Origin: Spinacia oleracea
Taxonomy: Eukaryota; Streptophyta; Magnoliopsida; Caryophyllales; Amaranthaceae
Reading direction: 5' to 3'
DNA: 64,000 nt
Assembly (NCBI RefSeq): GCF_020520425.1
Contig: NC_079488.1
Location: 10,331,747-10,395,746 of the forward strand
This document shows, in pieces, positions 26 to 52,954 of the stretch. The stretch's first letter is position 1. Each line of letters opens with the position of its first letter. The notes under the pieces were generated by a model, which saw nothing but the letters and a program-made list of their open reading frames with translations, searched no databases and was not told the origin of the DNA. The translations under genes and the position numbers were made by a program.

Positions 26-2419
26 TTAAATATAGTACTTTTTCAATTGGTCTAAGTTCGTGAGGTTAGCGAATTCCGCTCCATCTATGTCGGCTAGTTG
101 GACTGCTCCGCCAGGTAGGATGGTCTTTACAAAATATGGTCCTGTCCAGTTAGGCCGGAATTTTCCTCGAGGGTCCGTAGTAGGTGCGCGGACTTCTTTT
201 AAAACAAAATCGCCTTCTTTGATGTTTCGAGGTTTGACTCTTTTGTTGAATTGCCTTGCGATGCGCTTTTGATACACTTGCACGTGATGTAGAGCTCTCA
301 ACCTCCGTTCGTCTAAAAGGACGAGTTCGTCGTACCTAGCTTGAACCCAATCAGCTTCGGGTAGCTTGCTTTCTAGGACAATCCGGAGGGAGGGAATCTC
401 CAACTCGACCGGTTGGACTTCTTCCATTCCGTATACCAAGGAGTAGGGTGTTACTCCAATGGAGGTGTGGATTGAGGTTCGATAGCCCCATAATGCGAAG
501 TGTAATTTATTGGGCCAATCCTTATAATTTTCGGCCATTTTTTCGATTATGACTTTAATATTTTTGTTGGCCGCCTCTACCGCGCCGTTCATTTGCGGCC
601 TGTAGGGAGAGGATTTATGGTGTTTGACATGATATTTTTTGAGCAGGTCTTGGACTTCGGCCCTGAAGTGGGAACCTTGGTCACTTATGATTTCATGTGG
701 AACCCCGTATCGACAGAATATGTTCTTTTCTAGGAATCGAGCGACATGTTTGGCTGTTAACTTTGCATAGGAGACTGCCTCTACCCATTTAGTGAAGTAA
801 TCAATTGCAACTAAAACGTACTCGTGTCCCCCTACGCCTGTTGGTGTTACCTTGCCGATTATATCTATACCCCAGGTGGAAAAGGGCCATGGAGAAGTGA
901 AGGTGTATAGTTCTGAGGGAGGCAAATGGTTAAGGTTACTGAAGATTTGGCATTTTGGGCAAGTTTTTACAAAGTGATGGCAATCAGTTTCCATAGTGGT
1001 CCAATAGTACCCTGAGCGGGATATTTTTCGGGATAGCATTTTTCCATTCATATGGGGTCCGCACACGCCGTTATGGTATTCTTCCATTAGTCTTTGGGCT
1101 TGGTTTTGATGGACACAAAGTAACTTGATTTTATTCGGCGTGTATTTGTACAGTTCTCCCAGAATTATGCTATATTGTGAAGCGAGGAGGCGTAGGGCCT
1201 TTTGTGCTCGTGGGGAAGTGTTTGGGGGGAATTCCCCACTTGTTTTGTAACGAAGGATGTCCATGTACCATGGTTCTTCTTCGGTGTTTTCAGGTTCGAA
1301 GTCTATGGCACAACAATAAGCCGGCTCTTTCCTTCGCTCGAACCGAAGGGTCATTCCGTCCCATTCATTCGGGATGTTGAGCATTGAAGCTAGCTTCGCT
1401 AGTGCATCCGCGAATTGGTTGTAGTCTCTTGGCAAGTACGTATACTCGATTTTTTCAAATTGCTCGACTATTTGGTCCAAGTGAACTTGGTATTTTGAGA
1501 GACTAGTGCTTCGGACCTTCCATCTTTTGGATATATGGTTGATTATTAGGGAAGAATCCCCGAAGACTTGTAGGTATTTGACTCCGAGGCTAACTGCGGC
1601 CTCTAGCCCGACTATGCAGGCCTCGTATTCGGCGGCATTGTTCGTGGCCTCGAAGTCAAGTTTGACGGAAATTGGTATATGGGCTCCTTCGGGACTGACT
1701 AGGAGAACTCCGACGCCGCATCCTTTTTGGTTGGACACGCCATCGAAGTATAGTGTCCAATAGTCGTCTTGTATCATCAGAAGTTCCTCGTCGGGGAGGA
1801 GGTAAGCTTCCGGGGTTTCCTCATTCGCGGCATGCTCGGCCAGGAATTCGGCTACCGCTCTTCCTTTGATTGTTTTTTCCGGCATGAATTTTAGGTCGAA
1901 TTCTGAGAGCATGACTAGCCACCTGGACAGGCGACCACTCAGGGCGGGCTTTTCGAACACGTATTTTAAGGGATCTAGTTGTGACACTATATGAACAGTG
2001 TGGGCCAATAGGTAATGTCTGAGTTTTTTGGATGCCCAGACGAGGGCGAGACAGGTTTTCTCAAGTTCTGTGTATCTCGTCTCGTACTGTATGAACTTCT
2101 TGCTCAAGTAGTAAATGGCTCGCTCGAATCCATGTACACACTGTGAGAGCATAGCTCCTGCTGCAGTATCCGTGACGGTTAGGTATAGGCGTAAAGGGAT
2201 TCCAGGCAAAGGTGGGGAGAGGACGGGTGGCTTGCTTAGGTATTCTTTTATTTTATCGAAGGCAGTTTGGCATTGTTCATCCCATTCGGCCTTTTCCTCT
2301 TTTCTTAATTTTTTGAATATTGGCTCACAAGTCATAGTAAGCTTGGAAATGAACCTACTAATGTATTGCAGCTTTCCTAGGAAGCCCCTTATCTGTTTTT
2401 CAGTTTTTGGTGGGGGCAT
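26..2419 (-). CDS. gypsy pol, C-terminal part: RNase H, second (plant-type) RNase H and integrase
   Basis: This 797-codon frame continues element A pol beyond the in-frame stop. Residues 1-30 are the RT thumb end (RGFLGKLQYISRF). About 75-195 is the Ty3-type RNase H (YTELEKTCLALVWA). About 220-345 is a second RNase H with FDG (D226), NAAEYEA (E265), GDSS (D288) and ADALA near 336, as in Tat/Ogre elements. Integrase follows: an HHCC zinc-binding region (H449, H456, C487, C490) and a DDE core with D519 in WGIDIIG, D580 in SDQGSHF and E615 in NGAVEAAN. The C terminus after about 730 has the GDFVL...PNWTGPYFV chromatin/RNA-binding type fold. All catalytic residues I can place are present, so this half looks little decayed. 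It closes with a stop just before base 26. Confidence 0.88.
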   Translation of the reverse strand: MPPPKTEKQIRGFLGKLQYISRFISKLTMTCEPIFKKLRKEEKAEWDEQCQTAFDKIKEYLSKPPVLSPPLPGIPLRLYLTVTDTAAGAMLSQCVHGFERAIYYLSKKFIQYETRYTELEKTCLALVWASKKLRHYLLAHTVHIVSQLDPLKYVFEKPALSGRLSRWLVMLSEFDLKFMPEKTIKGRAVAEFLAEHAANEETPEAYLLPDEELLMIQDDYWTLYFDGVSNQKGCGVGVLLVSPEGAHIPISVKLDFEATNNAAEYEACIVGLEAAVSLGVKYLQVFGDSSLIINHISKRWKVRSTSLSKYQVHLDQIVEQFEKIEYTYLPRDYNQFADALAKLASMLNIPNEWDGMTLRFERRKEPAYCCAIDFEPENTEEEPWYMDILRYKTSGEFPPNTSPRAQKALRLLASQYSIILGELYKYTPNKIKLLCVHQNQAQRLMEEYHNGVCGPHMNGKMLSRKISRSGYYWTTMETDCHHFVKTCPKCQIFSNLNHLPPSELYTFTSPWPFSTWGIDIIGKVTPTGVGGHEYVLVAIDYFTKWVEAVSYAKLTAKHVARFLEKNIFCRYGVPHEIISDQGSHFRAEVQDLLKKYHVKHHKSSPYRPQMNGAVEAANKNIKVIIEKMAENYKDWPNKLHFALWGYRTSIHTSIGVTPYSLVYGMEEVQPVELEIPSLRIVLESKLPEADWVQARYDELVLLDERRLRALHHVQVYQKRIARQFNKRVKPRNIKEGDFVLKEVRAPTTDPRGKFRPNWTGPYFVKTILPGGAVQLADIDGAEFANLTNLDQLKKYYI

Positions 2420-2458
2420 TTCGGTAATGGCTTTGATCTTAGATGGGTCAATCTCGAT

Positions 2459-3940
2459 TCATCGCGTACTAACAACATATCCTAGCAATTTTCCCGAGGT
2501 TACCCCGAACACACATTTTTGTGGATTTAGTCTCATGTTATATTTCAAGATTCGAGTGAAGAATTTTTTAAGTGCCGGGAGGTGACCGCGCCGGTCTTTA
2601 GATTTGACGATCATGTCGTCCACGTAGACCTCGATTTCTTTATGTATCATGTCATGGAGTAACGTGGTGGCTGTTCTTTGATAAGTGGCCCCCGCATTTT
2701 TCAAACCAAAAGGCATTACAGTGTAACAATATGTTCCCCAAGGGGTAATGAAAGTTGTTTTTTCCATGTCTTGTTCTACCATTAGTATTTGGTTATATCC
2801 GGCGTACCCGTCCATAAAGGAGAGGAGCGCGTGTTCTGCGGTGTTGTCTACTAGTATGTCAATGTGAGGTAGGGGGAAGTCATCTTTAGGACTGGCTTTG
2901 TTGAGGTCTCGAAAGTCTACGCACATTCGCACTCGTCCATCTTTTTTAGCTACGCGGACAATATTGGCCACCCATTCTGGGTAGTTGGAGACTTTTATAA
3001 AGCCGGCGTCTAGTTGTTTAGTGACTTCTTCTTTTATTTTCAAGGCTATCTCTGGTTTGAGCCGCCGTAGCTTTTGTTTTACTGGCGTCATTTTGGGATC
3101 TAGCGGAATTTTATGCTCAGCGATTTCTCGATCTATTCCCGGCATGTCTTTGTAGGACCAAGCAAAGACACCCTCGAATTCCCGCAAAGTGGAGATTAGA
3201 TCGGCCTTTTCAGTGGGAGTTAAGGTGAGGCCAATTTTAATAATTTTAGGATTTTCTTCTGTTCCAATATTTACCGATTCTGTGTCCTCAATTATGGGAG
3301 TTTTGAGTTCTTGTTCATTTACAACTTTTATTAGTTTGGTATATTCCTCTTCTGGCTCTTTTTCGTGCTCATTAGTGGCGAGACATTCTGCATTATTACT
3401 CTGATTTTTAAGCGGCACATACTCAAAAGTTTTGTTTATCTTATTAAAGTCATGAAGCATTACATCAAAAAGATCTCCTGGAGTAGAGATTTCCGGGTCT
3501 AAACTATTTTTGGGAGGGGTTACAATTTTGCTAGGTTCGGACTCGGAGTCAGACTCGGATTCAGACTCTAATTCTTCGTACATCGGACCCTCTCCCGCAG
3601 ATATCTTGAACTTCATCCCACGAGCATTAGTCCATTTGAAAGTCTTGCGCCACCCTCGTTGGATTTGGTCATCTTTTGAGGGTGATGGAGCGATCAATTT
3701 AGTAGGATCGAACACTTCATCTTGGAGAGCTAATGCCATAATTTCTGTTTCTTTCTTCGCTCTTTTCTTTTCTAACCCAAACAATAGCCCGAAAGCATGT
3801 GAGTTGGGGAGCGTTTTTGGCATATCATGGTTCTTTGGGGCGAGTGGCCTTTGAGAACGTAAAGGGTCGTGTCCCAGAGCATGCATCTCTTGGGTTTGTG
3901 CGACCTCTAGGTACAGATGTTCGGGATATGCCTCTTCCAT
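2459..3940 (-). CDS. gypsy pol, N-terminal part: linker and reverse transcriptase (broken)
   Basis: This 493-codon frame copies element RNA into DNA. Residues 1-260 are the acidic, poorly conserved protease-RT linker, including a Ser/Glu/Asp run near 123-135. From about residue 285 it is a typical Ty3/gypsy reverse transcriptase: VDFRDLNKAS near 341-350, FMDGYAGYNQI near 375 with the first catalytic Asp, and YVDDM at 439-443 with the catalytic Asp pair. It ends at a TGA (2459-2461); the frame to the left (26-2419) is in the same phase, so a single in-frame stop divides one pol gene. The first Met (3940) is probably not a native start: gag and protease appear lost upstream, and stops precede it. 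The linker resembles the one at about 7700-7970 on the plus strand, so the two elements are related. Confidence 0.85.
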   Translation of the reverse strand: MEEAYPEHLYLEVAQTQEMHALGHDPLRSQRPLAPKNHDMPKTLPNSHAFGLLFGLEKKRAKKETEIMALALQDEVFDPTKLIAPSPSKDDQIQRGWRKTFKWTNARGMKFKISAGEGPMYEELESESESDSESEPSKIVTPPKNSLDPEISTPGDLFDVMLHDFNKINKTFEYVPLKNQSNNAECLATNEHEKEPEEEYTKLIKVVNEQELKTPIIEDTESVNIGTEENPKIIKIGLTLTPTEKADLISTLREFEGVFAWSYKDMPGIDREIAEHKIPLDPKMTPVKQKLRRLKPEIALKIKEEVTKQLDAGFIKVSNYPEWVANIVRVAKKDGRVRMCVDFRDLNKASPKDDFPLPHIDILVDNTAEHALLSFMDGYAGYNQILMVEQDMEKTTFITPWGTYCYTVMPFGLKNAGATYQRTATTLLHDMIHKEIEVYVDDMIVKSKDRRGHLPALKKFFTRILKYNMRLNPQKCVFGVTSGKLLGYVVSTR

Positions 3941-5181
3941 CGCGTTTCTTGATGGCTATCACGGGCAAGTACTCAGGGGCCCTGCATTATTGTTGTGGAG
4001 TAGGAGACACATTAGTTTGTTTCGTGAGTCGGCTTTTTTAGACATTCTATGACTACCCTTAAGTCGGACTAGTATATTTGGACTGTTATGTGTGCACTTT
4101 GAACTCTTTATGTTTTTTTTGAAAATTTCTGCCCGTGTGACATTCATGATTATTTGCATGGTCGACTTTTAGCGTCGAGCATTGCCGTCGTAGGAGGCCT
4201 AACAACGACGCAAAGAGTTATTAATTTTTTACGAGTCGCTTTTGAAATCGAGTGCTTTCCTTACGCCCTCGTAGCAATTCTTTTTATGAACATTTTTTTT
4301 TTGCTACGTATTTTCCTTTCGTGCGGGCACCGAAGCTGCTGCGCCTGTCCAGAAGGCCAAGCAGCAACTTCAGCGCCCAGCGTGGGGCGTGAGAATTTCT
4401 GGCGCCCAGCCAGGGGCATTGAAAATGCGTCCCTGGCTGGTTCTCGTTTTTTGTTTTCTGTTTATGCGACTTCGATTTGCGTGCTTGCCTAATAACGTCC
4501 TTTACGCGTAACAGCGTTTGTGGGATTCGTTACAGGCCATCCCGAGCGTCGCTTATTTTGTGGCGATCATTCGGGTTTGCGGAACACGTGTTTCGGTATA
4601 ACTCTTTGGCAAATTAGTCTATGAATGTTTGGGAAAATTTTAAGGTCATTGGTTTTCTAGGATAGTTTGTCACACACAATCACATATTTCGCTACACATA
4701 ACTACATTACAAACATAGATTTGAAAATTAAATATGCCACGTAGTTTATGATAGGCTTCTATGGGTAGTATTTGCGCCTGGCTTGGTACCGCTTCTATCG
4801 TAGATCCAACACATGCCCCGGTCGAGGTAGTGTCTTCAACAGACGAATTTCGCTCAATAGGCCAACCCGCAAGTGCAAGCCAAGGGGGCATGCAGGCGAG
4901 AGGGACCTAATGGGCGAGCGATTGGGTTCGGGATAGGTGTACTACCTGCACAACTACCGAGTGGGAAACATGCGCGGCGTATGCACCCCCCTATTGGCGA
5001 AAAAAGGTATCCTTAGTCCCAACTCCCGAGGGAGCCGAGATTCGTTATGCGGTTCTGCCCGTTCACCTTAATATGCTGATTTTCAGGTCGTCCCAACTTG
5101 ATGGGGAAATAAACGCGGGGTAGGATCGTTTCACCCTTCGGCTATTTTGATTACCTACAAGCACGAGTATTTCCTTCACTA
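3941..5181 (-). other. Leader (5' untranslated region) of element A; no supported gene
   Basis: This 1.2-kb gene-free stretch lies between the primer binding site and the pol remnant. Short open frames occur, for example 4891-4670 on the minus strand, but none resembles a known protein. It holds a GC-rich paired palindromic block at 4370-4425 (see the motif entry). It also has a segment near 4985-5050 that I recognise as the kind of leader found downstream of Tat LTRs. The junction with pol near 3950 is probably a deletion scar. Confidence 0.6.
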
Positions 5182-5199
5182 TCCCCAGTGGAGTCGCCA
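5182..5199 (-). other. Primer binding site of element A
   Basis: On the minus strand this reads TGGCGACTCCACTGGGGA, separated by one base from the LTR end TCACA at 5201. The sequence TGGCGACTCC...GGGGA is the tRNA-derived primer site typical of Tat/Ogre elements; I recall it as tRNA-Arg type but cannot check. It fixes the element orientation as minus and the LTR 3' boundary at 5201. Confidence 0.75.
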
Positions 5200-5200
5200 C

Positions 5201-6440
5201 TGTGAGGGGGTCGAAAAAGCGCGAGGCTAATGCGTGACCTGTCCCTCGTGGGTGTGACGATTCTTTTTATTCAATCAAGTGTAATTGGATTTCTTGTGAG
5301 TATACACCCAATTGACTAGTAATATAGGAGTCGTCATTCAGTTTTTAACGACAATGAGAAAAACTGACAAAACCCGGTTATCGTGACATAAAGGGAGTGC
5401 AATTATGTTTGACCACGACGGCCGTAGGTTCCCTTGTGATCCCTGGTGTGGGGATCTCTCAATATACACCCGCAAGGTAGAGATTGAGGGTTCGGGGGAC
5501 TGTAACTACCGAGAGGAGTAATTGGCTCGTCGATAACTCCAGAGGCAGGATATCCTTACTAGCTCAGCATAAATAATTGAAGGGACATGCATTATCTATT
5601 AAACTAATCTGAGTTGATTTTAGTAATATGCAACATATAATACTAATTCGATCGTGATTATCTGATTTAAATAGCATTAAGGGACCTAGCATGATAATCC
5701 GATTTCCCAAAAATATTATATTTGTTAGGCGTGATAGAACAATCATATTAGGTTAGTTTAACAGTTCATAAAAAGGGCGAAGAAAGCAGTTAAATCATCG
5801 AAAAGGGACACATTACGACGCACCCTTGAGAGGTGCGTCACGGTTCTCAGAAAACTAACCACTTTGACTTTGCTATTTCTCCTTTTTATTTAACGAATCT
5901 CAATTATGGGACAGGATACGTTCTGTTCGATTTATGGATCGATTGCGACAGAACGCGTGAACAGTTTCGCAGCGAGAGGCTTAGGCTAAGGGGTTTAGAG
6001 TCAATACTCAGAATATATTATGTGTTGTTGTGTGTTGTTTCACGTCGAAACTAGGGGCCTATTTATAGGGAAGAGTTCGTGGAAAGATAGAATTGCAGAG
6101 TTCTAATCCGCAAAGAATTAGGAAAAGAGACGTACCCAGGTAATTTCAGCGCCCAGAGCCAGGCGTTGAAAATAGGGTCTGGGCAGTTTTGTTTAGTCAG
6201 ATTCGGATTCCTAAAATCCGTAGAGTTTGAGATTAATTCGAGTCTTTTAGCGCGTATCAATTTTATGACGGAATGCGTCTGGGCCCGTTACGAACTCTAG
6301 GCTCGTTAGGATTTTAATTAATACGTAACTCTTATTTCCGAATCCTATTAGGAATAGGATTCTCGCAGTTTTCTATCTCATTTAGGATTTATGTTGGAGT
6401 GCAACACCTAATTCTGACAGGTTTCTATCTTTTATGACTT
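5201..6440 (-). repeat. LTR copy 1 (5' LTR of element A, truncated)
   Basis: It is homologous in reverse complement to 11768-12964 and in direct orientation to 12965-14252. It ends on the minus strand in TCACA next to the primer binding site. It breaks off at 6440, about 200 bp short of the complete start seen at 14252, where plus-strand protease coding begins. A TATAAATA box lies at 6067-6060 on the minus strand, with half of the GC-rich palindromic block at 6144-6170. Confidence 0.85.
6060..6067 (-). promoter_or_regulatory. TATA box of LTR copy 1
   Basis: TATAAATA on the minus strand. It is conserved in position in the other two LTR copies (12100-12107 plus, 13659-13652 minus). The GC-rich block starts 77 bp upstream. 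Confidence 0.6.
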
Positions 6441-6441
6441 C

Positions 6442-7983
6442 TTCACTGAAACTTGGCCCGGGTATGCTCTCATTGACACCACCCCTCAGGAGCCCGAGGT
6501 CGACAACCTCACTCGATCCGGAAGAATATACCAACCGGACATTCACCCACCTCCCATGGACGACGTCCCGGTTAGGCAAACTCCTGAGAATGGACGGCAC
6601 GCCACCGTCGCGGAAGTCATTGAAAATCCTCTCCTGAAACAACTAAAAAGAACCAAGGCTGAGATTACCATCTGGGATCTTATGTGTACTTCAAAGGAAC
6701 ATCGCGAAAAGCTTATTCGCTCACTTGACCTCATCTCAGTACCTACAGATATCACGCCTGACTCATTGGTTAGCCATGTCACGAGAGATGCCGGAGAAAA
6801 GGCCATAGTTTTCACTGATAAAGACTTACCCAAAGAGGGGGGTGCTCACAATAAAGCCCTTTACCTAGTGGTTGGATGCAAAGGACAAAACATCCCCCTA
6901 GCGCTCGTAGATAATGGTTCGGCGGTTAATGTCTTCCCATTGCGAACCGCCCATTGCTTGGGGCTAGGAAGCGATGAATTCCAAACCTCCACGCAAGGGG
7001 TACGAGCTTATGATAACTCCCGAAGGCCTGTATTGGGGAAAATCAACCTTACCATACAAACCGGGCCTGTGGCACGCACCACGGAGTTTTAAATAATCGA
7101 CATCAAGCCCACTTTCAACCTCCTCTTGGGGCGACCTTGGCTCCATGACTTAGGAGGTGTGGCTTCTACCTTGCACCAAATGGTTAAACTTAACCATAAC
7201 GGGGTAATACTAGAAACCCGCGCCCCTCCTCTCAACGTCAGTTGTACTATGGTTGGAACAGCCGAAACTGCAGACGACCTTTATGGGTTTCAAATGGAAG
7301 AAACAATCCAGTTCATCGAAGATTATGATCCAGCATTCCTAGACCCGCATGCATCCCGAGTCATCCCTAGAATGCTGTTAGATCAAGGTTATTTCCCAGG
7401 AACCCCATTGGGCATAAGGAAGAAGGAATACACGTTCCATCCTTTTCCCGATAAATCTACTCCCTTTGGCTTAGGTTATGAACCAACGGAGGAAGATATT
7501 GCTGACCGCCTATCTAGGCTACGCCTTAACAAAGCCAAACAAACCACCCTCCTTCCCCCATATCAAAGGACCCTTAACGGGATGTTCGTTCGGGAAGGAG
7601 AAGAACACCCATGCTGCGATTTCCCTGAACCCTTCGTTCAGGATGGATTGCTAAAACCCGGATTTGAAATTTTCCATGACTGCCACACCTTGGATGAGGC
7701 ACCCTACCTCACCAAGACTAAAACAGCTGAAATATTGGACAACCAGGCTCTATGGACATTGTTTAACGAATCGAGGCCTATGAAGGACGAGACTGTGATG
7801 ACTACCCTAGCTTTACAAGATGAAAGTTTCAATCCAACCCGGTTAATCTCTCCTGCATCAACACTAGAAGAGGTCGAGAACGGATGGGTGAAGACATATT
7901 AGTGGGTCAATGCAAAAGGAATGGAATTCAAGATGAGTACCGGTGAAGGACCAAAGTTTTATGAGACTAAACCCCAGGCTTGA
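6442..7983 (+). pseudogene. Gypsy gag-pol fragment: retropepsin-like protease and linker, with in-frame stops
   Basis: One reading frame runs from 6442, at the LTR junction, through 7983. It is interrupted by TAA at 7090-7092 and TAG at 7900-7902 and closed by TGA at 7981-7983. A DNL..SGRIY segment near 6508 is typical of the spacer before Tat protease. The protease active site is LALVDNGSAVNV at about 6895-6930, with DNG in place of the common DSG/DTG, as is usual in this lineage. LLLGRPWLHD follows near 7123. The linker at 7720-7970 is the counterpart of residues 60-120 of the element A pol frame. RT and everything after it are absent. It is not functional. Confidence 0.8.
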
Positions 7984-9309
7984 GCCACATAGAGCACCAT
8001 TAGTAAAAAGCGCCTAGTAGTTCTTTAGATTGATAGAAAAAAATAATAGAGACTTTAGATGGTCCTAAGGCCCTTTAGAATATGGGTCAGTTTTATTTCA
8101 GTGTGTTTTCCTTACTTTCCGAATCAATAAAGGCGTAATATTTCTCCTAAAAATTTTATTCTAACACTAAATAAACACCAAATGTACTTGCAAAATACAA
8201 AAATAAAGAGGCGGCCCACTCTAGGCCCAACAAACAAAGCCCACTCGGTTTTGAAATAGTGCCATGGGAACCAATTCCCGAAACCCACAAAATAAACCAC
8301 ACTATCCCATTCATATCCCCAAAACCTAAAAAGCCAACCAGTGTCATCATAAGAGCCAATCCATGCAACCCAAAATCAAAGGAAATCAAAAATTTAAAAA
8401 CAATGCAAATGTTACCAAAAAAAACAGATTCATAAAACATAGATTCCATCATACCCTTCACTAACAACCCACCTCCAAAGCCTACACAAAGATCTTCATA
8501 ACTTCCGCACCCTAACTCCATTTTCAAAACTGTTTTGAGTCACCAATAGAAAAAATTAATCTGGACAAAAGTGCATTTCACGCTAACAGTCAAAAATGCC
8601 TCCAAAATAGCCTCAAAATTAACTTTAAATACAAAGCAAAATATCAAGGCACAAAAAAAAAGAAATAGAAATAAACGCAAGAACATGTGAAGCAAAACGT
8701 CAAAAATTGACCGCCCAAGTCATTTTCAGCGCCCAGGGCTGGGCGCCGAAATTTCTGACGCCCCAGCCTGGGCGTTGAAACTCTCTGCCTGCCAAAAGTT
8801 TTCTTTTTGAAAGTGCTCGTCATTTTATCCGCACACAACGGAAAAATAACGAACACTTGGGGGGTACAGTACGTATCCAAATAGGTTTACCAAGAATATA
8901 GCTATACAAATTAGTCGAATTTTACGCAACCTATGGCAAAAAAAAAAACGGCAGATGAAAATAATGATAAATACTTCACTCATTTGACCGACTAAGTAAT
9001 ATGTTTCCACCTCAGGGCATACCTACCGAAATCCGGCATACTAGAACTAATTCAAAAGCTAGAACTACGCGCGACCTGATTCTGACAAGATACGTAGGCA
9101 ATCCTTACCAAGGATTCGGTCCAAATAATAAAAAAATATATTCTTTGTGCAAAAAAGTGTTAGACATATAAAAGAGGAGAAACAAAAATAAATGAAAACT
9201 AAAAATACGCCTTTATTAAAATATAATAAGAAGGAAAACAGAGTGCTAAAAATAAAAACAAACACGACTGAAATAAATAGAGGGCACCTACACCCTAGCA
9301 AGAACTACA
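7984..9309 (+). other. 3' untranslated region of element B; no supported gene
   Basis: This 1.3-kb gap separates the broken pol from the antisense gene. A segment at about 9010-9120 (GCATACCTACCG...GACCTGATTCTG...TACGTAGGCAA) is a hallmark I recognise from the 3' portion of Tat elements. A complete GC-rich palindromic block lies at 8725-8780. Open frames such as 8527-8156 (minus) are low-complexity and unconvincing. Confidence 0.55.
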
Positions 9310-11124
9310 CTACTCTAGTTCTTCTGGATCATCGAATAAAGTCTTGTAGAGGGCAATATTCGCAGGATCCACTCCCACAGTCCTCTGCGCTGCCCCAATG
9401 TCAATCGCCATAAGAACCGGCTCCTGGACACTAGCTTCCAAAGATGCCAAGGCTTCAGAAACATTCTCAGTTATAACCCGCTCAGCCTCAAGGGCACAAA
9501 CAATGGTGGGAGAAGGATTATTATCATCAACTAGACTAGCCACTGTTTCTACAGGCGGCTGAGCCTTCCTAACCCATACATTGTTCCGGCGACGATCTCT
9601 GCGAGAGCTTGCATTTCTTTTAACAAAAGCAGGCCCCTTCATGTTAGGCATCTTTTTAGGCCTGAAACTGGAACGGGGAGGAACTTCCTTTCGCTTTCGA
9701 TCAGGACGAGCTTTCACAGGCTTAACACTATAGGTACGAGGTCTGGTAGAATCAGGACCCTCATACTTAACACGAATACGAGGTATCAAAAGCTCAGCCG
9801 GCTCCCCATTACGAGCCTCGGTCCTCACATCTTTGTCATCAGAGCTCATCCACAACTTGTAGTTTTCAGAAAGACCCACAAAGCCATTTGTAGCTACGGC
9901 CCAACGCGGGAGACCATCATAATACTTAGCCCACGCTAAGACCCGTGTTTGTGAAAAGGCCGCTACCTTAGGTTGTACCGTATCAGAAAAGGGGATAGTC
10001 TGCCTTAAACCATATTGACGCATGACTCGGTAAGGGAAAATATAAATGGGACGAGATAGCCCCAACAAAGAAACATAAACCGATACATCAGACCCCCTTG
10101 TCATAGTAGTCAAACCCCACCATGGTACCACCCACTTAATAGAACAAATGCCATAAGTAAAAAAGGAGGTCCATTCGGCCTCGTCCTGGCCTTGGTGCAA
10201 GTATTTTCGGCTACCCAAAGCTATAGGGCGATAAGGTTTAGGATCGGCAGGAGCTTCCAAAAGTCTAAGCCGTTCCGCAAGCCAAATCTGCAAAAACAGG
10301 TACGATCGAATCAAAAGAATGAAAAGAAAGAAAAAACGGTTCCTGGGGCGCAGTTTCATCGCCCAGGACCAGGCGCCGAATATTCCAGCGCCCAGCACTG
10401 GGCGCTGAAACTCAGCCCCAGGCAGAAAGAAATATATGCAAAAAAAAAAAACATACATGTGCGCAAGGAAAAGATCGATTACTTGCAGCAATAGGGGGCT
10501 CCCCTTAAAATATTCAGATTTGGCGCCCTTCTTCAGTTCATCCGCACTCAGCAAAGTCTCAGCAATAACCAACGGCATAATAGAATAGCAACTTTCCATC
10601 TGGCTAATCAAGGGGATCAACCTTATGTCACCGAACTCACCATTATTATTCGACAGCAAGTAATGATTCAACAAGCAAAATACAAGGGCTCGAATTTTCA
10701 ATTTTTGTTCGGTCATATTCTTACTAGGCCTAAAATGATGTTTTACAAGTTTTGCCAAGTTAACCTTATCGTCTACAACAATTTCAGCAAACATGTTATC
10801 ATCTAGCCCTAGGAAAGCCCTTATGGTTGTTTTACCCTCTTCAACGGTGCCAGGGGTAACAGGAGTAGCATTAGTAGGATAACCAAGGATCGCAGCAAAT
10901 TCATCGGGCAAAGGACATATTTCATTGCCCCGAAAGGAAAAAACATGATGATCGGAGTCCCAAAAGCTTAGGGCAGCATGCAGAAAGTTATAATCAATAT
11001 TAATTTGTTGTAAGCCTAAAAGTGCCTCTAAGTGGTATTCTTTTAAAAAAGCTTTTTCTGTGGGAGTAAGGGCCCGTAGCCAACGCCTAACAGTCCGTTG
11101 GAGTGAGAAAGTAGGGATCGACAT
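9310..11124 (-). CDS. Antisense plant-mobile-domain (PMD) protein gene of element B, one probable intron
   Basis: A 604-codon open frame runs antisense to element B. Residues near 55-83 (WDSDHHVFSF...PLPDEFAAILGYP) and the following region match the plant mobile domain. This family includes MAIN/MAIL1-type nuclear proteins and is often carried by gypsy and Mutator elements (established knowledge). A likely intron is 10482-10288 (GTAATC...TTTTTGCAG, 195 nt). It joins LLLQ to IWLAERL as expected for the domain, giving about 539 residues. The C-terminal third is highly basic (RKRKEVPPR, RRDRRRNN), suggesting nuclear localisation. A TATA box lies 84 bp upstream of the ATG. The frame has no disabling mutation although the surrounding pol is dead. 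The molecular role is unknown; silencing or transcriptional control is an inference from host PMD proteins. Confidence 0.75.
   Translation of the reverse strand: MSIPTFSLQRTVRRWLRALTPTEKAFLKEYHLEALLGLQQINIDYNFLHAALSFWDSDHHVFSFRGNEICPLPDEFAAILGYPTNATPVTPGTVEEGKTTIRAFLGLDDNMFAEIVVDDKVNLAKLVKHHFRPSKNMTEQKLKIRALVFCLLNHYLLSNNNGEFGDIRLIPLISQMESCYSIMPLVIAETLLSADELKKGAKSEYFKGSPLLLQVIDLFLAHMYVFFFCIYFFLPGAEFQRPVLGAGIFGAWSWAMKLRPRNRFFFLFILLIRSYLFLQIWLAERLRLLEAPADPKPYRPIALGSRKYLHQGQDEAEWTSFFTYGICSIKWVVPWWGLTTMTRGSDVSVYVSLLGLSRPIYIFPYRVMRQYGLRQTIPFSDTVQPKVAAFSQTRVLAWAKYYDGLPRWAVATNGFVGLSENYKLWMSSDDKDVRTEARNGEPAELLIPRIRVKYEGPDSTRPRTYSVKPVKARPDRKRKEVPPRSSFRPKKMPNMKGPAFVKRNASSRRDRRRNNVWVRKAQPPVETVASLVDDNNPSPTIVCALEAERVITENVSEALASLEASVQEPVLMAIDIGAAQRTVGVDPANIALYKTLFDDPEELE
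10288..10482 (-). other. Probable intron in the antisense PMD gene, stop-free and a multiple of 3
   Basis: The donor is CAA|GTAATC and the acceptor TTTTTGCAG|ATTTGG on the minus strand, both in phase 0. Length is 195 nt with no stop in frame, so unspliced RNA would encode a 65-residue Phe/Leu-rich insertion in the middle of the domain. A full GC-rich palindromic block sits inside it at 10354-10410. Confidence 0.65.
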
Positions 11125-11207: not shown

Positions 11208-11215
11208 TATATATA
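11208..11215 (-). promoter_or_regulatory. TATA box of the antisense PMD gene
   Basis: TATATATA lies 84 bp upstream of the ATG at 11124, followed by a short A/T-rich untranslated region. The GC-rich palindromic block at 11297-11353 begins 82 bp upstream of the box, nearly the same spacing as in the LTR promoters. Confidence 0.6.
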
Positions 11216-11767
11216 GCTGAACGCACCCAATGACATCCTGATCCCATTCGGAAACGCGTTAGAAATCCGAAAATCAAATATTACCAGGAAAGGACTTTCA
11301 GCGCCCACCTCTGGGCGCCGAAATGTTTAACGCCTGAACTTGGGCGCTGAAAATGCAGCCCAAGGCCCAGATTTCACAAAACACGGAACAGGAAAGGACT
11401 TAAGACCGTGTTGCTAAACACGAGGCCCTATTGCAAGTAGGATCAAGCCCAAAGCACCTTTAGCTCCCAAATAAGCAAGAAAAAATAATAACATTAAAAC
11501 TTGGTCAAAACTTAGACTCGTCTCAGAAGATGCTTATGTACACTTTCCAAAAAAAAAAAAGCAAGTTAAATATCATGGTCATTCTTCGAAACACCAAAAA
11601 TATGTGTCGTCAAGTCATTGGTTTTCCAAATAAAAAATGTTTGTCTGTCAAAGGGTTAATCCGGGCCAAGCTAAAACTGGATGTCGCCTTAAAACTAAAG
11701 TCGCACTCCACGGCTTCGCTAAAGCAGCACACTACTGTAGAAGGTCGCTCGCACATACGAGCAGAAA
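11216..11767. other. Promoter/upstream region of the antisense PMD gene; no gene
   Basis: This 550-bp stretch lies between the PMD TATA box and the LTR. It contains the palindromic block at 11297-11353 and otherwise no recognisable coding. No LTR start (TGTAGACACC) is visible, so the LTR that follows is truncated at its 5' side. Confidence 0.5.
11297..11353. promoter_or_regulatory. GC-rich paired palindromic block upstream of the antisense PMD promoter
   Basis: The structure is TTTCAGCGCCCA...TGGGCGCCGAAA followed by AACGCC...GGGCGCTGAAA, two imperfect inverted modules flanked by TTTCA/TGAAA. Matching blocks occur at 4370-4425, 6144-6170 (half), 8725-8780, 10354-10410, 11967-12023 and 13734-13792. 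Function is unknown; position before promoters suggests a regulatory site or an RNA hairpin. Confidence 0.6.
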
Positions 11768-12964
11768 ACTGCGAGAATCCTATTCCTAATATGATTCAGA
11801 AATAAGAGTTACGTATTAATTAAAATCCTAACGAGCCTAGAGTTCGTAACGGGCCCAGACGCATTCCGTCATAAAATTGATACGCGCTAAAAGACTCGAA
11901 TTAATCTCAAACTCTACGGATTTCAGGAATCCGAATCTGACTAAAGAAAACAGCCCAGACCCTATTTTCAACGCCTGGCTCTGGGCGCCGAAATCTTCGG
12001 CGCCCAGGCCTGGGCGCTGAAAATACCTGGGTACGTGTTTTTTTCCTAATTCTTTATGGATTAGAACTCTGCAATTCTATCTTTCCACGAACTCTTCCCT
12101 ATAAATAGGCCCCTAAATTCGACGTGAAAGAACACAACAACACACAATTATATTCAGAGTATTGACTCCAACCCTTAGCCTAAGCCTCTCGCTGCGAAAC
12201 TGTTCACGCGTTCTGTCGCAATCGATCCATAAATCGAACAGAACGTATCCTGTCCCATAATTGAGATTCGTTAAATAAAAAGGAGAAATAGCAAAGTCAA
12301 AGTGGTTAGTTTTCTGAGAACCGTGACGAACCTCTCAAGGGTGCGTCGTAATGTGTCCCTTTTCGATGACTTAACTGCTTTCCTCGCCCTTTTTATGAAC
12401 TGTTAAACTAACCTAATCTGATTGTTCTATCACGCCTAAAAAATATAATATTTTTGGGAAATCGAATTATCATGCTAGGTCCCTTAATGCTATTTAAATC
12501 AGATAATCACGATCGAATTAGTGTTATATGTTGCATATTGCTAAAATCAACTCAGATTAGTTTAATAGTCAACGCATGTCCTTTCAATTATTTATGCTGA
12601 GCTAGTAAGGATATCCTGCCTCTGGAGTTATCGACGAGCGAAGTACTCCTCTCGGTAGTTACAGTCCCCCGAACCCTCAATCTCTACCTTGCGGGTGTAT
12701 ATTGAGAGATCCCCACACCAGGGATCACAAGGGAACCTACGGCCGTCGTGGTCAAACATAATTGCACTCCCTTTATGTCACGATAACCGGGTTTTGTCAG
12801 TTTTTCTCATTGTCGTTAAAAACTGAATGGCGACTCCTATATTACTAGTCAATTGGGTGTATACTCACAGGGAATCCAAATACACTTGATTGAATAAAAA
12901 GAATCGTCACACCCACGAGGGACAAGGTCACGCATTGGCCTCGCGCTTTTTCGACCCCCTCACA
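11768..12964 (+). repeat. LTR copy 2 (3' LTR of element B, 5' truncated)
   Basis: It is the reverse complement of 5201-6373. Homology starts at GAAAACTGCGAG near 11768 and ends at CCCTCACA at 12964, the LTR terminus by comparison with element A. TATAAATA lies at 12100-12107 and the full palindromic block at 11967-12023, 77 bp upstream. A copy of the primer-site decamer TGGCGACTCC lies inside the LTR near 12824-12833. Confidence 0.85.
12100..12107 (+). promoter_or_regulatory. TATA box of LTR copy 2
   Basis: TATAAATA, conserved in all three LTR copies, lies 77 bp downstream of the GC-rich block. It is the likely promoter of the LTR. Confidence 0.6.
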
Positions 12965-14252
12965 CCCGATTATCGTGACATAAAGGGAGTGCAATTATGT
13001 TTGACCACGACGGCCGTAGGTTCCCTTGTGATCCCTGGTGGTGGGGATCGCTCAACGTACACCCGCAGGGTAGAGATTGAGGGTTCGGGGGACTGTAACT
13101 ACCGAGAGGAGTACTAGCTCTTCGATAACTCTAGAGGCAGGATATCCTTACTAGCTCAGAATAAATAATTGAAGGGACATGCGTTAACTATTAAACTAAT
13201 CTGAGTTGATTTTATCAATATGAAACATATAGTACTAGATCGAGCGCGATTATCTGATTTAGATTGTTTTAAGGGACCTAGCATGATAATCCAATTTCCC
13301 AAAAATATCATATTTATTAAGCGTGATCGAACAATCAGATTTTAGTTAGTTTAACAGTTCATAAAAGGGCGAGGAAAGCAATTAAACCATGGAAAAGGGA
13401 CACATTACGACGCACCCTTGAGAGGTGCGTCACGGTTCTCAGAAAACTAACCACTTTGACTTTGCTATTTCTCCTTTTATTTAACGAATCTCAAATTATG
13501 GGACGGGATACGTTCTGTTCGATTTATGGATCGATTGCGACAGAACGCGTGATCTGTTTTGCAGCGTGAGGCTTAGGCTTAGGGGTTTAGAGTCAATACT
13601 CAGAATATAATTGTGTGTTGTTGTGTTCTTTTCACGTCGAACTTAAGGGTCTATTTATAGGAAAGAGTTCGTGGAAAGATAGAATTGGAGAACTCTAATC
13701 CACGAGGAATTAGGAAAAAACACGTACCAGGTATTTTCAGCGCCCAGGCCTGGGCGCCGAAGATTTCGGCGCCCAGATCCAGGCGTTGAAAATAGGGTCT
13801 GGGCTGTTTTTCTTAGTCAGATTCGGATTCCTAGAATCCGGAGTATTTGAGATTTAATTGAGTCCTTTAGTGCGTATTAACCTTGTGACGGGATGCGTCT
13901 GGGCCCGTTACGAACTCTAGGTTCGTTAGGATTTTAATTAATATGTGACTCTTACTTTCGGATCATATTAGGAATAGGATTCTCTCGCAATTTCTATCTC
14001 ATTTAGGATTTATGTTGGAGTGCAACACCTAATTCTGACAGGTTTCTATCTTTTATGACTTGCCACTTTTAACAACTACCTATTACGACAGTTACTATTT
14101 CTAGAAGGTTTCCATAAATAGCAGGTTTCGGGTGAAATGAAAAGGGGAATTGAGATTCGTTATTTTATAGGAGATGCGTTGTCAAGTGGAGATTTACGTT
14201 TTCATCATCGAACCTTCCCTCTCGGGAATGGGGACAAAAGTAGGTGTCTACA
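12965..14252 (-). repeat. LTR copy 3, inverted against copy 2, complete 5' start
   Basis: On the minus strand it begins TGTAGACACCTAC at 14252, the expected start of a Tat LTR. It runs parallel to copy 1 and stops at 12965, about 170 bp short of the LTR end, exactly where copy 2 finishes. TATAAATA is at 13659-13652 with the palindromic block at 13734-13792, 75 bp upstream. Copies 2 and 3 form a long palindrome with arms of about 1.03 kb (11768-about 12793 and 12965-about 14000). The full family LTR would be about 1.45 kb. Confidence 0.85.
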
Positions 14253-49849: not shown

Positions 49850-51932
49850 TTTTTTGTGCCACTTGTTTCCCGTTCTACAAGAGGGGCGGTTCTTTAGAAA
49901 ACCATTGTATTTTTGTACCTCGAAGGAGTCGCCACCAAATAATTTTTAAAGTCTCGTTTGGAAACACCGCAAGTGACTCTATTTTGGATAAGGCTTTGAA
50001 TCCTCGAAACAGATGGGTGAGATCCGGGCACGAGAACGAAATGCTTATTCCGCGAGCTTTAGAAATATTCAAGTACGTTGGCACCACATTTTCGAAAATA
50101 TACCCTAGATTAGACTATGTGGTTTTGAATTTAGAGCAAATATAATCTCTAATTTTATGGTGGCCACTTTGCTTTAAAGATTAATTTAAAGGAACCTAAG
50201 ACCGGTTTGTCCAAGAAATTATCTTTGTGAAGCGTGATGTAACCTTGTATTAGGTTGTATTTGGCATGTGCGGTGATGAAAGCAAAAAAGCAAATAAAGC
50301 AACATCACAATACTAAATAAAGTGCGGAATTAGTAAATACAAGACCCACTAGAGATGGACTAGGGAGTAGGTCCACATTGCCTAGAAATGGACTAGGCAA
50401 GTAAAGATGCGGAATTGAAAGTGCGGAATTAAAATTGCGGAATTAAAAGTGCGATATTCAAAGTGCGGTATTGAAATTGCGGAATTGAAAGGTGCGATAT
50501 TGAAATTGCAATAGTGAAAGGTGCATAATTGAAACTTGTACTTGGGCACATGAGATTCGAACGCCAAGAGGCTCCTTAAAAATAAGTGCGCCCGACACGA
50601 ATTCAAAGTAAAAAATCTCAACTTGGGAGAGGTTGCTCAACCCAAATATCCTAGACTTTGCATATTGAACTTGAACTTGAAAACTTGAATATTGAAATAT
50701 TGAACTTGAAATGCTTAAACTTGAAATATTGAACTTGTATTTGAAATATTGAAATTTAAGAGGCTTGAATCTCAAAGATCGGGCCTTTTAATGTTGAAAA
50801 GGTTAGATCTTCGATAAGCTCTTACTTGAAAGGATCCTAGTTTAGGGAAGTAGTCATGAACAACCCTAAACATGGTGGGATCTTGAAATTTGAAAACTTG
50901 AACTTGTATATTGAAAAATGGAGTTGTGAATCTCAAAAGACTAGACCTTTAAGGATTAAAAGGTGTCATCTTTGATTACTCCATGCTTGAAAGTGATTCT
51001 AGTTCAAAGAGGTGATTGCAAGCAACTTTGAACATCCTTGAATCTTGAAAGTTTGCATTTTTGTATTTTGAAAAGTTTGGATTTTTGAAAAGATGTATGA
51101 TTGTTGCAAGTGACATTTTTAATAATAAAAGTGCCAACTTGCTAATCATTTTGAAATCAAGAAGACTTGATTGAATATGGTGGGATTCGGAATTACCTAT
51201 TTAGGTTTAGGCAAGAATTCCTTTTAGAGCTCCCAATTGCTTAGAATTAGAAATTTTGTATGTGTTTTTGAAGGGTTTTTGATTTGTAGTTTGAGGCGTA
51301 ATGTCAGTATTACGACGTTGTATTTGTTATCTCCTCCCTCTAATGCTGAAAATGAGGGGTATTTATAGGAGGAATGGGTGCAAGACGCCAACACACGCCA
51401 GCGCAGCACGCCAAAGCAGCGCTGGGCGCTGGTGACGTGGCATGAATGCCGCCAAAGCAAGGACGCGGGCTCCGTCCTTGTTTCGTCTTGTAGTGTTGTA
51501 CCTTTGTACGAATAGTACTAGGCTTGGAGTTTTGTGTTTTCTTGGAGGTTAAGGCACTATTTTTTGTCTAAAAATAAGCCTTTCTCGGGTTTTGAATTCC
51601 GGTTGTACGGGACGGGGCCCGGCTGGCTCGGTTTTTTGGGTCGGCGCCCGAATTTGACTTGCCTTATATGATTTTTAGTGGAAAAGGCTTAGTAAAACCA
51701 ATGGGATGGTCTACTAGATGATATTGTACTTGAATTTTGAAATTGGTTTTTTGAAAGTTGTATTTTGTACCGAGAACCGAAAGGGGAACGGCCTCGGGAA
51801 TTGGATTTTGGATCTTGAATTTTGGAAATGTTCTTAGCAATTGGGATTTCCGTCCGGAGTTATTCCAACCGCCTAGTAAGGATGATGGTATCGTCATCAT
51901 CCCAGAGGGGAGACACAAATTAGGTGTCTACA
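49850..51932 (-). repeat. 3' LTR of a second Tat-type gypsy element (element C)
   Basis: On the minus strand it begins TGTAGACACCTAATTTGTG at 51932, immediately after a purine tract (minus strand CAAAGTGGGGGCTTC, 51947-51933), which marks it as a 3' LTR. TATAAATA is at 51367-51360, and a CAGCGCTGGGCGCT-type GC block lies upstream of it (51388-51432). The left limit is uncertain; a TGGCGACTCC copy lies inside the LTR at 49934-49925, as in the other family. The interior is full of TTGAACTTG/GAATTGAAAGTGC low-complexity repeats (50400-50770). Confidence 0.7.
50405..50530 (+). repeat. GTGCGGAATTGAAA-type low-complexity tandem array
   Basis: About eight variants of a 14-18-bp unit (AAGTGCGGAATTGAAA, AAGTGCGATATTCAAA and so on) inside the element C LTR. 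Confidence 0.7.
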
Positions 51933-52510
51933 GAAGCCCCCACTTTGACTGAGCGTTCGGTTAGGAAAGCGCAAGTCAAAGTATTTCGAAAGGGACGGAG
52001 AATGATCAAGATGTTCTTCACTGGAGACCACTCTTTGTACGCCGGTACCTGCATAAAATAGGCGTTAGAAAAAAGGATAGAGTCTACCTCGGTGCGGTTG
52101 TGACGACTCCGATTTGTACTCGTACTTTGCCGCCTTCGGTTCAGGACGGAGCTTGGCATCGAAAATTTTGAATCTTGAATTTTTGAATTTGAACACCCAG
52201 AGTTGATCCATTGGGGATGTGCTTTGCTGGGGATAAAAGCTTTTTACTGGCCCTTAGTATTTTGAAATTTCGACTGACTTTCCCGAAGCTTGGGTCCGTT
52301 GGGAGTTGAACGCCTGAGTCGTTGTATTTTTTGGACTTTGTATTCTTGAAATATTCATCTGTTTGTACTTGGAGATACAGGTGTATACCCATATTTTTTA
52401 TGGATGGCCTGATGCGACGTTTGATGCTTGGTGCGGAAGACCGTAGCAGCAAAGGACGTGCAATCAGCACAGGAGACCGCGCGCGCTGAAGATTCGCGCA
52501 TGCAGCAGGC

Positions 52511-52558
52511 AGCGCTGGGCGCTTGGCCGGCGTACTACGCGGGGCTGCGCTGTATAAG
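52511..52558 (+). promoter_or_regulatory. Putative promoter of the element C PMD gene
   Basis: The GC core AGCGCTGGGCGCTT (52511-52524) lies about 28 bp before TATAAG (52553-52558). A CT-rich leader follows, with a donor-like ATGTAAGT near 52660, suggesting a 5' untranslated intron before the ATG at 53205. Confidence 0.45.
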
Positions 52559-52954
52559 CGCCCCTTGCCGTGCCGTTTTGAGGAGCAATCTCTTGCTTTC
52601 TTGCTCTCTTTCTCTCTTAAAGGTCGAATTGTCTTCCCTTGATCCTGTTCTTGCCTTATCCATGTAAGTATTTCATGTTTTTCTTATGAAATATCTCTAG
52701 GATTGCATGTAGTTTTGATTTTCTCGTACTTTGAAATGATGCTTGTATGCTTAAGCTTCTTGAATCTTGTAGAAAACTGTTTGATAGCCACTCGAACTTG
52801 AACTGTTGGAACTTGTAGATTTGAACTTTTGAAAGTTTTATTGAGTCTTGTACCTGGTATTTGTAGATAGTAGTCTCACTGGTGACCTAGCGGGTTCTCA
52901 GGTAGAGAAATAGGCTAGGATGCCTTGATGTTGTTTTTGTAGAGTTTTGAAATA

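Follow-up and report, generated by a model that had tools for sequence, protein, structure and literature searches.

From the perspective of its layout, the left part of the window (the whole stretch of DNA analysed, 64 kb in length) is occupied by a pol-bearing retrotransposon on the minus strand, by a plus-strand element that carries a PMD-like gene in antisense, and by three copies of one LTR, while a second family of elements with a PMD gene lies further to the right. The features referred to below are the following, the blocks and cores being given without a strand:

26-3955, minus strand: pol ORFs (RT, RNase H, RVT_3/aRH, integrase) of the pol-bearing element
4368-4424: leader block of the pol-bearing element on the minus strand, placed between the LTR and the coding part, away from both promoters
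5197-6440, minus strand: LTR copy 1, matching positions 195-1465 of the reference LTR (L018 stretch 481-1945)
6144-6171: lone surviving module in LTR copy 1, 76 bp to the TATA box
8724-8780: gap block, with the protease/RT-start remnant on one side and the 3' end of the PMD-like gene on the other, away from both promoters
9310-11124, minus strand: PMD-like gene, antisense to the plus-strand element, with its ATG at 11124, a first exon of 642 bp and a second exon to about 9310
10354-10410: block in the inferred PMD intron, away from both promoters
11208-11215, minus strand: PMD TATA box, TATATATA
11296-11352: PMD-promoter block (modules 11296-11323 and 11325-11352), 80 bp upstream of the PMD TATA box
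11763-12964, plus strand: LTR copy 2, without the first ~260 bp of the reference LTR
11966-12022: block of LTR copy 2, composed of modules 11966-11993 and 11995-12022 and preceding the LTR TATA box by 77 bp
12100-12107, plus strand: LTR TATA box of copy 2, TATAAATA
12964-14237, minus strand: LTR copy 3, matching positions 1-1289 of the reference LTR, head to head with copy 2
13735-13791: block of LTR copy 3, 75 bp to the TATA box
51417-51429: second family, palindromic core CAGCGCTGGGCGC in the LTR, at a distance of 48 bp from its TATA box (51360-51368, minus strand)
52510-52522: second family, PMD-promoter core CAGCGCTGGGCGC, 30 bp from the TATA box (TATAAG at 52553)
53491-54192, plus strand: second family, PMD exon (Pfam PMD, E 5.3e-16)

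The pol domains of the minus-strand element follow the order RT-RH-INT, which is of the Ty3/gypsy type. At window positions 29-2458, Pfam identifies RT_RNaseH, then RVT_3 at 238-357 and then the integrase, an arrangement that assigns the element to the Tat clade, since PMC6317226 describes an aRH located between RH and INT in both Ogre and Retand. Copies 2 and 3 of the LTR are joined head to head at about 12964, which suggests a rearranged or nested cluster. By comparison with other members of the family (L017, L030 and L033), the 3' LTR of the PMD-bearing element lacks, at window 11736-11763, its ~260-bp start together with the region that precedes it. As a consequence, the sense and antisense promoters lie 900 bp apart, a proximity found only in this copy, instead of the ~2.4 kb that separates the two TATA boxes in L030. 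Near the 5' end of the longer form of the LTR there is a second antisense TATA-like box (CTATAAATAGCAGG, minus strand; L018:599, L033:9643 and similar). Five PMD-bearing relatives (L017, L023, L030, L031 and L033) keep the protease region, little beyond the RT start being matched before the PMD gene, and judging by what they encode they look non-autonomous for pol.

The antisense gene contains an inferred intron at 10288-10482 (195 bp, GT..AG), through which the reading frame is also open in the window copy; in the eight copies where both ends were found the intron measures 186-201 bases, and in three of them its length is not a multiple of three. The gene scores 34.4 bits against the Pfam PMD profile (PF10536, E 1.9e-08), just below the cut-off of 34.9, for which reason "PMD-like" is the safe name, and 26.7 bits against DUF7745, above the cut-off of 26. 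Unlike these two, the Transposase_28 domain was not matched by the antisense ORF in the scan, which covered the submitted proteins and left short ORFs outside. Exon 1 is open in five of the ten copies with a donor site (no such site was found in the L017 copy), and the ten pairs among these five give dN/dS values of 0.09-0.28 with a median of 0.14; the non-open rows left out are L023 (one stop), L036 and L010-L012 (out of frame, perhaps through a wrong choice of start). Values of this size indicate that the PMD protein is, or was, under purifying selection. In the 9 kb to the left of the window (L037), the pol-bearing minus-strand element has its own, clearly different antisense PMD-like gene at 5915-7500 (Pfam E 9.4e-12; 29% identity to the PMD of the second family), with blocks in front of it and behind it. 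No TATATA or TATAAA box was found within 160 bases of the front block.

The block common to these features consists of two 28-base palindromic modules whose starts are 29 bases apart and which follow the pattern TTTCAGCGCCCAGnnCTGGGCGCYGAAA, that is, a core of CGCC-N8-GGCG framed by TTTC and GAAA. In LTR copy 2 it forms a portion of a longer inverted repeat with the outer arms CCCAG/CTGGG. At the PMD promoter, the TATA-proximal module (11296-11323) is well preserved and the other (11325-11352) is degenerate in one arm. These sequences stand out clearly from the background, as CGCCCAGNNCTGGGCG with up to two mismatches has 13 matches in the window versus none in 100 dinucleotide shuffles, 11 of the 13 being modules of the first family and the remaining two lying at 34307 and 62469. 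With a mismatch limit of 7, the 13 window modules differ from the 28-mer at 1-7 positions, compared with 10 for the best match in five Markov-1 shuffles. Outside the Tat elements, a 49-bp tandem array at 62472-62661 contains CGCTGGGCGCAGCGCTCG and is rich in block-like letters.

A preliminary description of this DNA had reported the paired block at the same distance from the LTR promoter and from the antisense PMD promoter. Its distances for LTR copy 2 (77 bp, with both modules) and copy 3 (75 bp) were recovered exactly. In copy 1, said to hold half a block at 77 bp, a single module is indeed present, but the gap is 76 bp, and the block placed 82 bp before the PMD TATA box exists with a gap of 80 bp and one module degenerate on one arm. 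In the genome (894 Mb), the 28-mer with up to two mismatches has 26,125 forward and 26,087 reverse matches, which should mostly be identical sites, as the pattern is nearly palindromic; the 28-mer written backwards has no match genome-wide. The module end GCGCTGAAA occurs 60-90 bases before CTATAAATA at 11,094 places, against 32 at 29-59 bases and 310 at 91-121 bases, the last group being, as judged by eye from the 100 listed of the 310, mostly the other module of the same pair. Among the matches listed of the 11,094, the gap between the LTR block and the TATA box is 74-77 bp. It is 75-78 in all 17 LTRs with a TATA box (18 were examined, L020 being the one without), although the number of modules in U3 ranges from 1 to 4, and this constancy regardless of module number is what an upstream element would show.

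At the PMD promoter, GCGCTGAAA lies 65-95 bases before CTATATATAG at 1,694 places in the genome, and among the matches listed of these the gap is 80 or 81 bp in 93 of 100. A 26-mer spanning the PMD TATA box occurs at 1,222 places; an exact half-site at the PMD distance accompanies 59 of the 71 compared, which are the part of the 100 listed that lies below about 42.8 Mb on C1. Twenty PMD promoters picked from the same 100 listed of 1,222 by the TATA box alone all keep at least one module, with gaps of 80-82 in 18 of them and of 71 and 76 in the other two. The near-equal distances (74-77 versus 80) are fixed within each promoter type. Nonetheless, copies within a promoter type are homologous, so that they amount to one comparison of two promoters, the equality of which is not repeated in other families; likewise, L010-L012 are the best DNA matches to the window and hence not independent of it. 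What stands of the claim of equal distance is its tightness (74-77 bp for the LTR, 80/81 bp for PMD) and not an equality extending to the second family.

The two promoters are not the only places where the block is found. The preliminary description, which treated it as a mark of these promoters, omitted the window blocks at 4368-4424, 8724-8780 and 10354-10410. Blocks at five homologous positions were revealed by a survey of the window, of the 9 kb on its left side and of twenty 10-kb stretches, each of which had been chosen for an exact module. These positions are the LTR U3, the leader that separates LTR and gag, the gap from the protease/RT-start remnant to the PMD 3' end, the intron of the PMD gene and its promoter. 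In L034, for instance, the LTR match ends at 5958, the leader block lies at 6758 and a Retrotrans_gag ORF extends over 7180-8808. Of the 27 leader, gap and intron rows, 5 have a TATA-like string no more than 150 bp outward of the block (leader 1/10, gap 1/10, intron 3/7). The genome-wide tabulation of distances bore out fixed spacing for LTR and PMD blocks, whereas blocks at the other three positions mostly have no TATA-like string. The existence of leader, gap and intron blocks argues against a reading of the block as a promoter element only, a rejection that the TATA-like strings of gene-less elements described below weaken.

The block is also kept in elements in which no PMD gene was detected. 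L018 and L020, both seen from one LTR to the start of the next, have five block positions each (LTR, leader and three more), which in L018 are spaced about 1.2-2.3 kb, and the LTR of L018 is 97% identical to the window LTR. Neither element gave a match at E 1e-4 to the first PMD (in two halves), the second PMD, RT, RT-INT or two protease-region queries, a set that did not include gag. L019, L021, L025, L028 and L035 resemble them, though not all of these were seen end to end. The presence of the block in L018 and L020, in which PMD was not detected, goes towards one of the outcomes, occurrence equally often in elements with no PMD gene, that the preliminary description had named as speaking against its proposal, although service in trans could still apply. 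By eye, the third position in gene-less elements has a flank in common with the gap position, and flanks of the intron type border one of the L019 blocks, so that some gene-less elements may derive from PMD-bearing ones. The fourth position duplicates the third, including 80-95 bases of flank (L018, L020 and L025), so that spread of the block within an element by segmental duplication is seen directly. TATA-like strings within 150 bases outward were found in 5/8, 6/8 and 1/9 rows of positions three, four and five, respectively, and certain internal blocks of gene-less elements may therefore also serve promoters. Past the fourth-position block, a TATAAAA-like string lies at 24-28 bases in six of eight rows (L018, L020, L021, L024, L028 and L035), a possible cryptic promoter.

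Regarding sequence variation, minor letters make up a mean fraction of 0.018 in the core, against 0.072 in the flanks and 0.077 in the remainder of the block. The core is thus about four times less variable than the flanking DNA; it has the lowest value in each of the seven tested classes, and 20,000 mask shifts yielded no value as low. Each class held 5-12 rows, from which block-chosen and duplicate rows had been removed, the gap class being dropped with only one unchosen copy; rows whose block stretch was more than 3 bases off the norm (e.g., LTRs with three and four modules) were also dropped, and core columns were set by locating the modules in the column majority. A first flank count comprised 95 rows, six of which were duplicates: three rows of L009, a stretch corresponding to the window, as well as L013 and L015, which repeat L017 and L018, and the LTR of L024, which repeats that of L023. 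Of the 89 distinct places thus delimited solely by their flanking DNA, 88 contain at least one exact CGCC-N8-GGCG core, including all 18 that had been picked by the block. The sole loss, in the LTR at L037:1426-1462, is a deletion between two CCTGG repeats. This LTR is a natural block-less promoter in which the TATA box is still present. CpG is retained in 210 of 222 core cells and in 538 of 621 cells of the flanks. Outside the core, block positions vary less than the flanks in three classes (LTR, intron and third position) and more in the remaining four, with a maximum at the PMD promoter and position five, a distribution that a short recognition sequence with a freer spacer would fit better than a conserved 57-mer. 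Gene conversion could partly account for the low divergence of the core.

Related but not identical designs exist in other families. In the second family, said in the preliminary description to repeat the theme, the core CAGCGCTGGGCGC does occur at both the LTR and the PMD promoter, but at 48 and 30 bp. The 13-mer core was found at both promoters in five of five further pairs, which had been picked for having it in both. Gaps judged by eye are 48 in the window and 30-49 elsewhere for the LTR, and 30 in the window and 28 in L038-L040 for PMD, so that the two distances differ from each other and from those of the first family. Furthermore, nine unrelated LTRs, listed for containing GCGCTGAAA, hold additional TTTCCAGCGCT..AGCGCTRGAAATTTCCAGCGCTG-like palindromes before CTATAAATA that were not part of the query. 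CAGCGCT palindromes with the TTTC/GAAA frame lie up to ~120 bp before CTATAAATA in L063-L071 (e.g., C1:53684954, C2:48351193 and C1:66453192). The half-site (TTTC)(C)AGCGC before the TATA box thus recurs across several LTR families with differing spacers.

The best explanation of these data, taken together, is that a dimeric DNA-binding protein recognises the block, which would be a cis-regulatory site serving as an upstream element common to both promoters and multiplied within the retrotransposon; we assign this reading a probability of about 0.5. A dimeric protein would bind the CGCC-N8-GGCG core, with tandem modules 29 bp apart. Where it precedes the TATA boxes of the LTR and of the antisense PMD gene, the block would most likely constitute a shared upstream element through which transcription is controlled, by activation or, if a host factor reads the block, possibly by repression. 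Short segmental duplications would carry it into further non-coding intervals, and it would be kept in elements without a detected gene. The constraint on the core, the CpG retention, the genome-wide spacing before CTATAAATA, the 88 of 89 places with a core, the duplicates with 80-95 bp of flank and the half-site palindromes of other LTR families all agree with such a site. On the other side, a pure promoter role is insufficient for the 22 of 27 leader, gap and intron rows without a TATA-like string within 150 bp, the LTR at L037:1426 lost the block and still has its TATA box, and in the LTR, intron and third-position classes the constraint extends to the rest of the block. Moreover, gene conversion may have contributed to the low divergence of the core, and gene-less elements could simply have inherited the block, as the intron-type flanks in L019 would allow. 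As for the protein that would read the block, a host factor is at least as likely as the PMD protein, given the half-site palindromes before the TATA boxes of other LTR families. The E2F site is TTTSSCGC; as an identity for the block it was set aside, because the letters do not fit.

Among the alternatives, the one that fares best, although unlikely, is that the block acts as a structural hairpin, in RNA or as a cruciform, with a role in packaging, dimerisation or as a small-RNA precursor. The LTR and intron blocks fold as a single long hairpin far beyond shuffled sequences (z -9.2 and -9.7, respectively), as does the gap block to a lesser extent (z -4.1), which also counts against a pure protein site, and the leader position would suit a packaging signal. 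However, the leader block itself (z -3.2) and the PMD-promoter blocks (z -5.4 and -4.3) have no single-hairpin fold. Base-pair changes were scored in 152 modules, found by similarity and hence leaning towards the motif: pairs 7-10 are C-G, G-C, C-G and C-G in 142, 150, 148 and 151 of them, the arms and spacer vary, and the core hardly ever changes to another pairing. Selection for RNA pairing in the sense strand should favour G-T among the off-pairs. On the element-sense strand these amount to 268 A-C, 143 G-T and 136 others, but the A-C excess is confined to pairs 5 and 6, without which the counts are 107 A-C and 120 G-T, suggesting no clear preference for RNA pairing either way. The off-pair test thus gave no support to RNA-hairpin selection, a result that is weak in so far as the A-C excess rests on two pairs. 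With the near-invariance of pairs 7-10 in its favour, the protein-site reading is preferred over the hairpin.

A slightly less probable explanation is that the CpG-rich palindromes draw host methylation, an insulator or a silencing factor along the element, as chromatin anchors. Blocks about every 1.2-2.3 kb in L018 and the retention of the CpG-rich core would suit such a role. Elements would nevertheless be expected to shed sites at which the host silences them, and few places have lost the core (1 of 89). A published study reportedly deals with CpG islands in Del LTRs.

Two further proposals give the PMD protein a part. In the more inclusive one, which is doubtful, the palindrome would be an address code of the Tat family, read by PMD or by a captured host factor at the LTR, the PMD promoter and the internal gaps; if true, it would place pol-bearing, PMD-bearing and gene-less members under one trans-acting system coupling sense and antisense transcription. 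The narrower one, which was that of the preliminary description and now seems improbable, is a self-regulating circuit in which the PMD protein, by binding the block at both promoters, would govern transcription of its own gene as well as of the LTR. The presence of the same block at both promoters in the copies examined and the purifying selection on PMD exon 1 (median dN/dS 0.14) agree with it, PMD-less elements could be read in trans, and antisense proteins of such kind have been proposed as regulators in parts of the Tat literature (PMC11963269, PMC7264820). Against it stand the blocks at non-promoter positions and in elements without detectable PMD, the different distances in the second family and the half-site shared by other LTR families. 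In Arabidopsis, the PMD proteins MAIN, MAIL1 and PP7L are linked to a promoter (DOWN) motif and to transposon silencing (PMC7156037, PMC9899485), and whether the PMD complex touches chromatin is stated as unknown in PMC9899485. These are host genes, not element-encoded ones, and the motif instance printed there for MORC1, CATGCAGTTT, is unlike the Tat block, which also argues against the circuit. This one instance, which is not the full form of the motif, has no exact match in the window; with one mismatch it has 8 matches versus 5.3 expected, a number reached by 16 of 100 shuffles. One of the 8 lies at 11674-11683 (minus strand), ~550 bp before the PMD ATG, and another at 52706-52715 (plus strand), before the second PMD gene.

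Least probable is passive hitch-hiking, in which a functionless double palindrome multiplied by template switching would lie at the promoters by coincidence. The dispersed duplicates of 80-95 bp are in keeping with it, and for other blocks placed at random the chance of a match within 5 bp of the PMD TATA distance is ~0.4-0.7% per chosen offset, which is small, although the offsets were chosen post hoc. Against it, the core is constrained relative to the flanks in all tested classes, and the distance is fixed in thousands of copies, albeit related ones.

In comparison with known systems, the antisense genes of Retand/Tat elements lie between pol and the 3' LTR, as here, and mostly encode a Transposase_28 domain, unlike the PMD-like gene described above, the maize Grande gene23 being transcribed from its own upstream promoter (PMC11963269, PMC7264820). 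The passages of these two accounts that deal with antisense ORFs make no mention of a shared palindromic block. Ogre is likewise a Tat-clade element with an aRH domain in pol and a PMD gene, the latter in 57% of the elements according to PMC6317226. A literature search with the letters of the block produced no paper on plant retrotransposons, by title, among the matches listed. The closest known design appears to be that of the RM boxes of Sireviruses, which are palindromic, CpG-rich and present many times per element, with an LTR cluster shortly upstream of a conserved TATA box and further copies near the ENV gene, and for which a cis-regulatory role has been proposed (PMC2829016). The Tat block has a similar location ahead of the LTR TATA box and is likewise present at the extra gene (20 of 20 PMD promoters). 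The differences, as far as the RM boxes are described in that source, concern the core (CGG-CCG in the RM boxes versus CGCC-N8-GGCG with a TTTC/GAAA frame), the host element (Ty1/copia with an ENV-type extra gene versus Ty3/gypsy Tat with an antisense PMD gene) and the distribution, since RM boxes occur outside the LTR only with an extra gene, whereas internal Tat blocks are also found in L018 and L020, where no PMD was detected.

Because the block recurs in other non-coding gaps and in relatives without the antisense gene, a protein-binding site in wide reuse seems a better description of it than a switch dedicated to two promoters. Antisense accessory genes are common in Tat retrotransposons and are described as being of unknown function in the sections of PMC11963269 and PMC7264820 devoted to them. 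A constrained site common to the LTR and to the promoter of such a gene, and kept where the gene is not detectable, would offer a direct handle on a protein that may bind it. It also suggests that plant retrotransposon lineages as different as Sirevirus and Tat reached the same design, in which palindromic boxes precede the LTR TATA box and accompany the extra gene.
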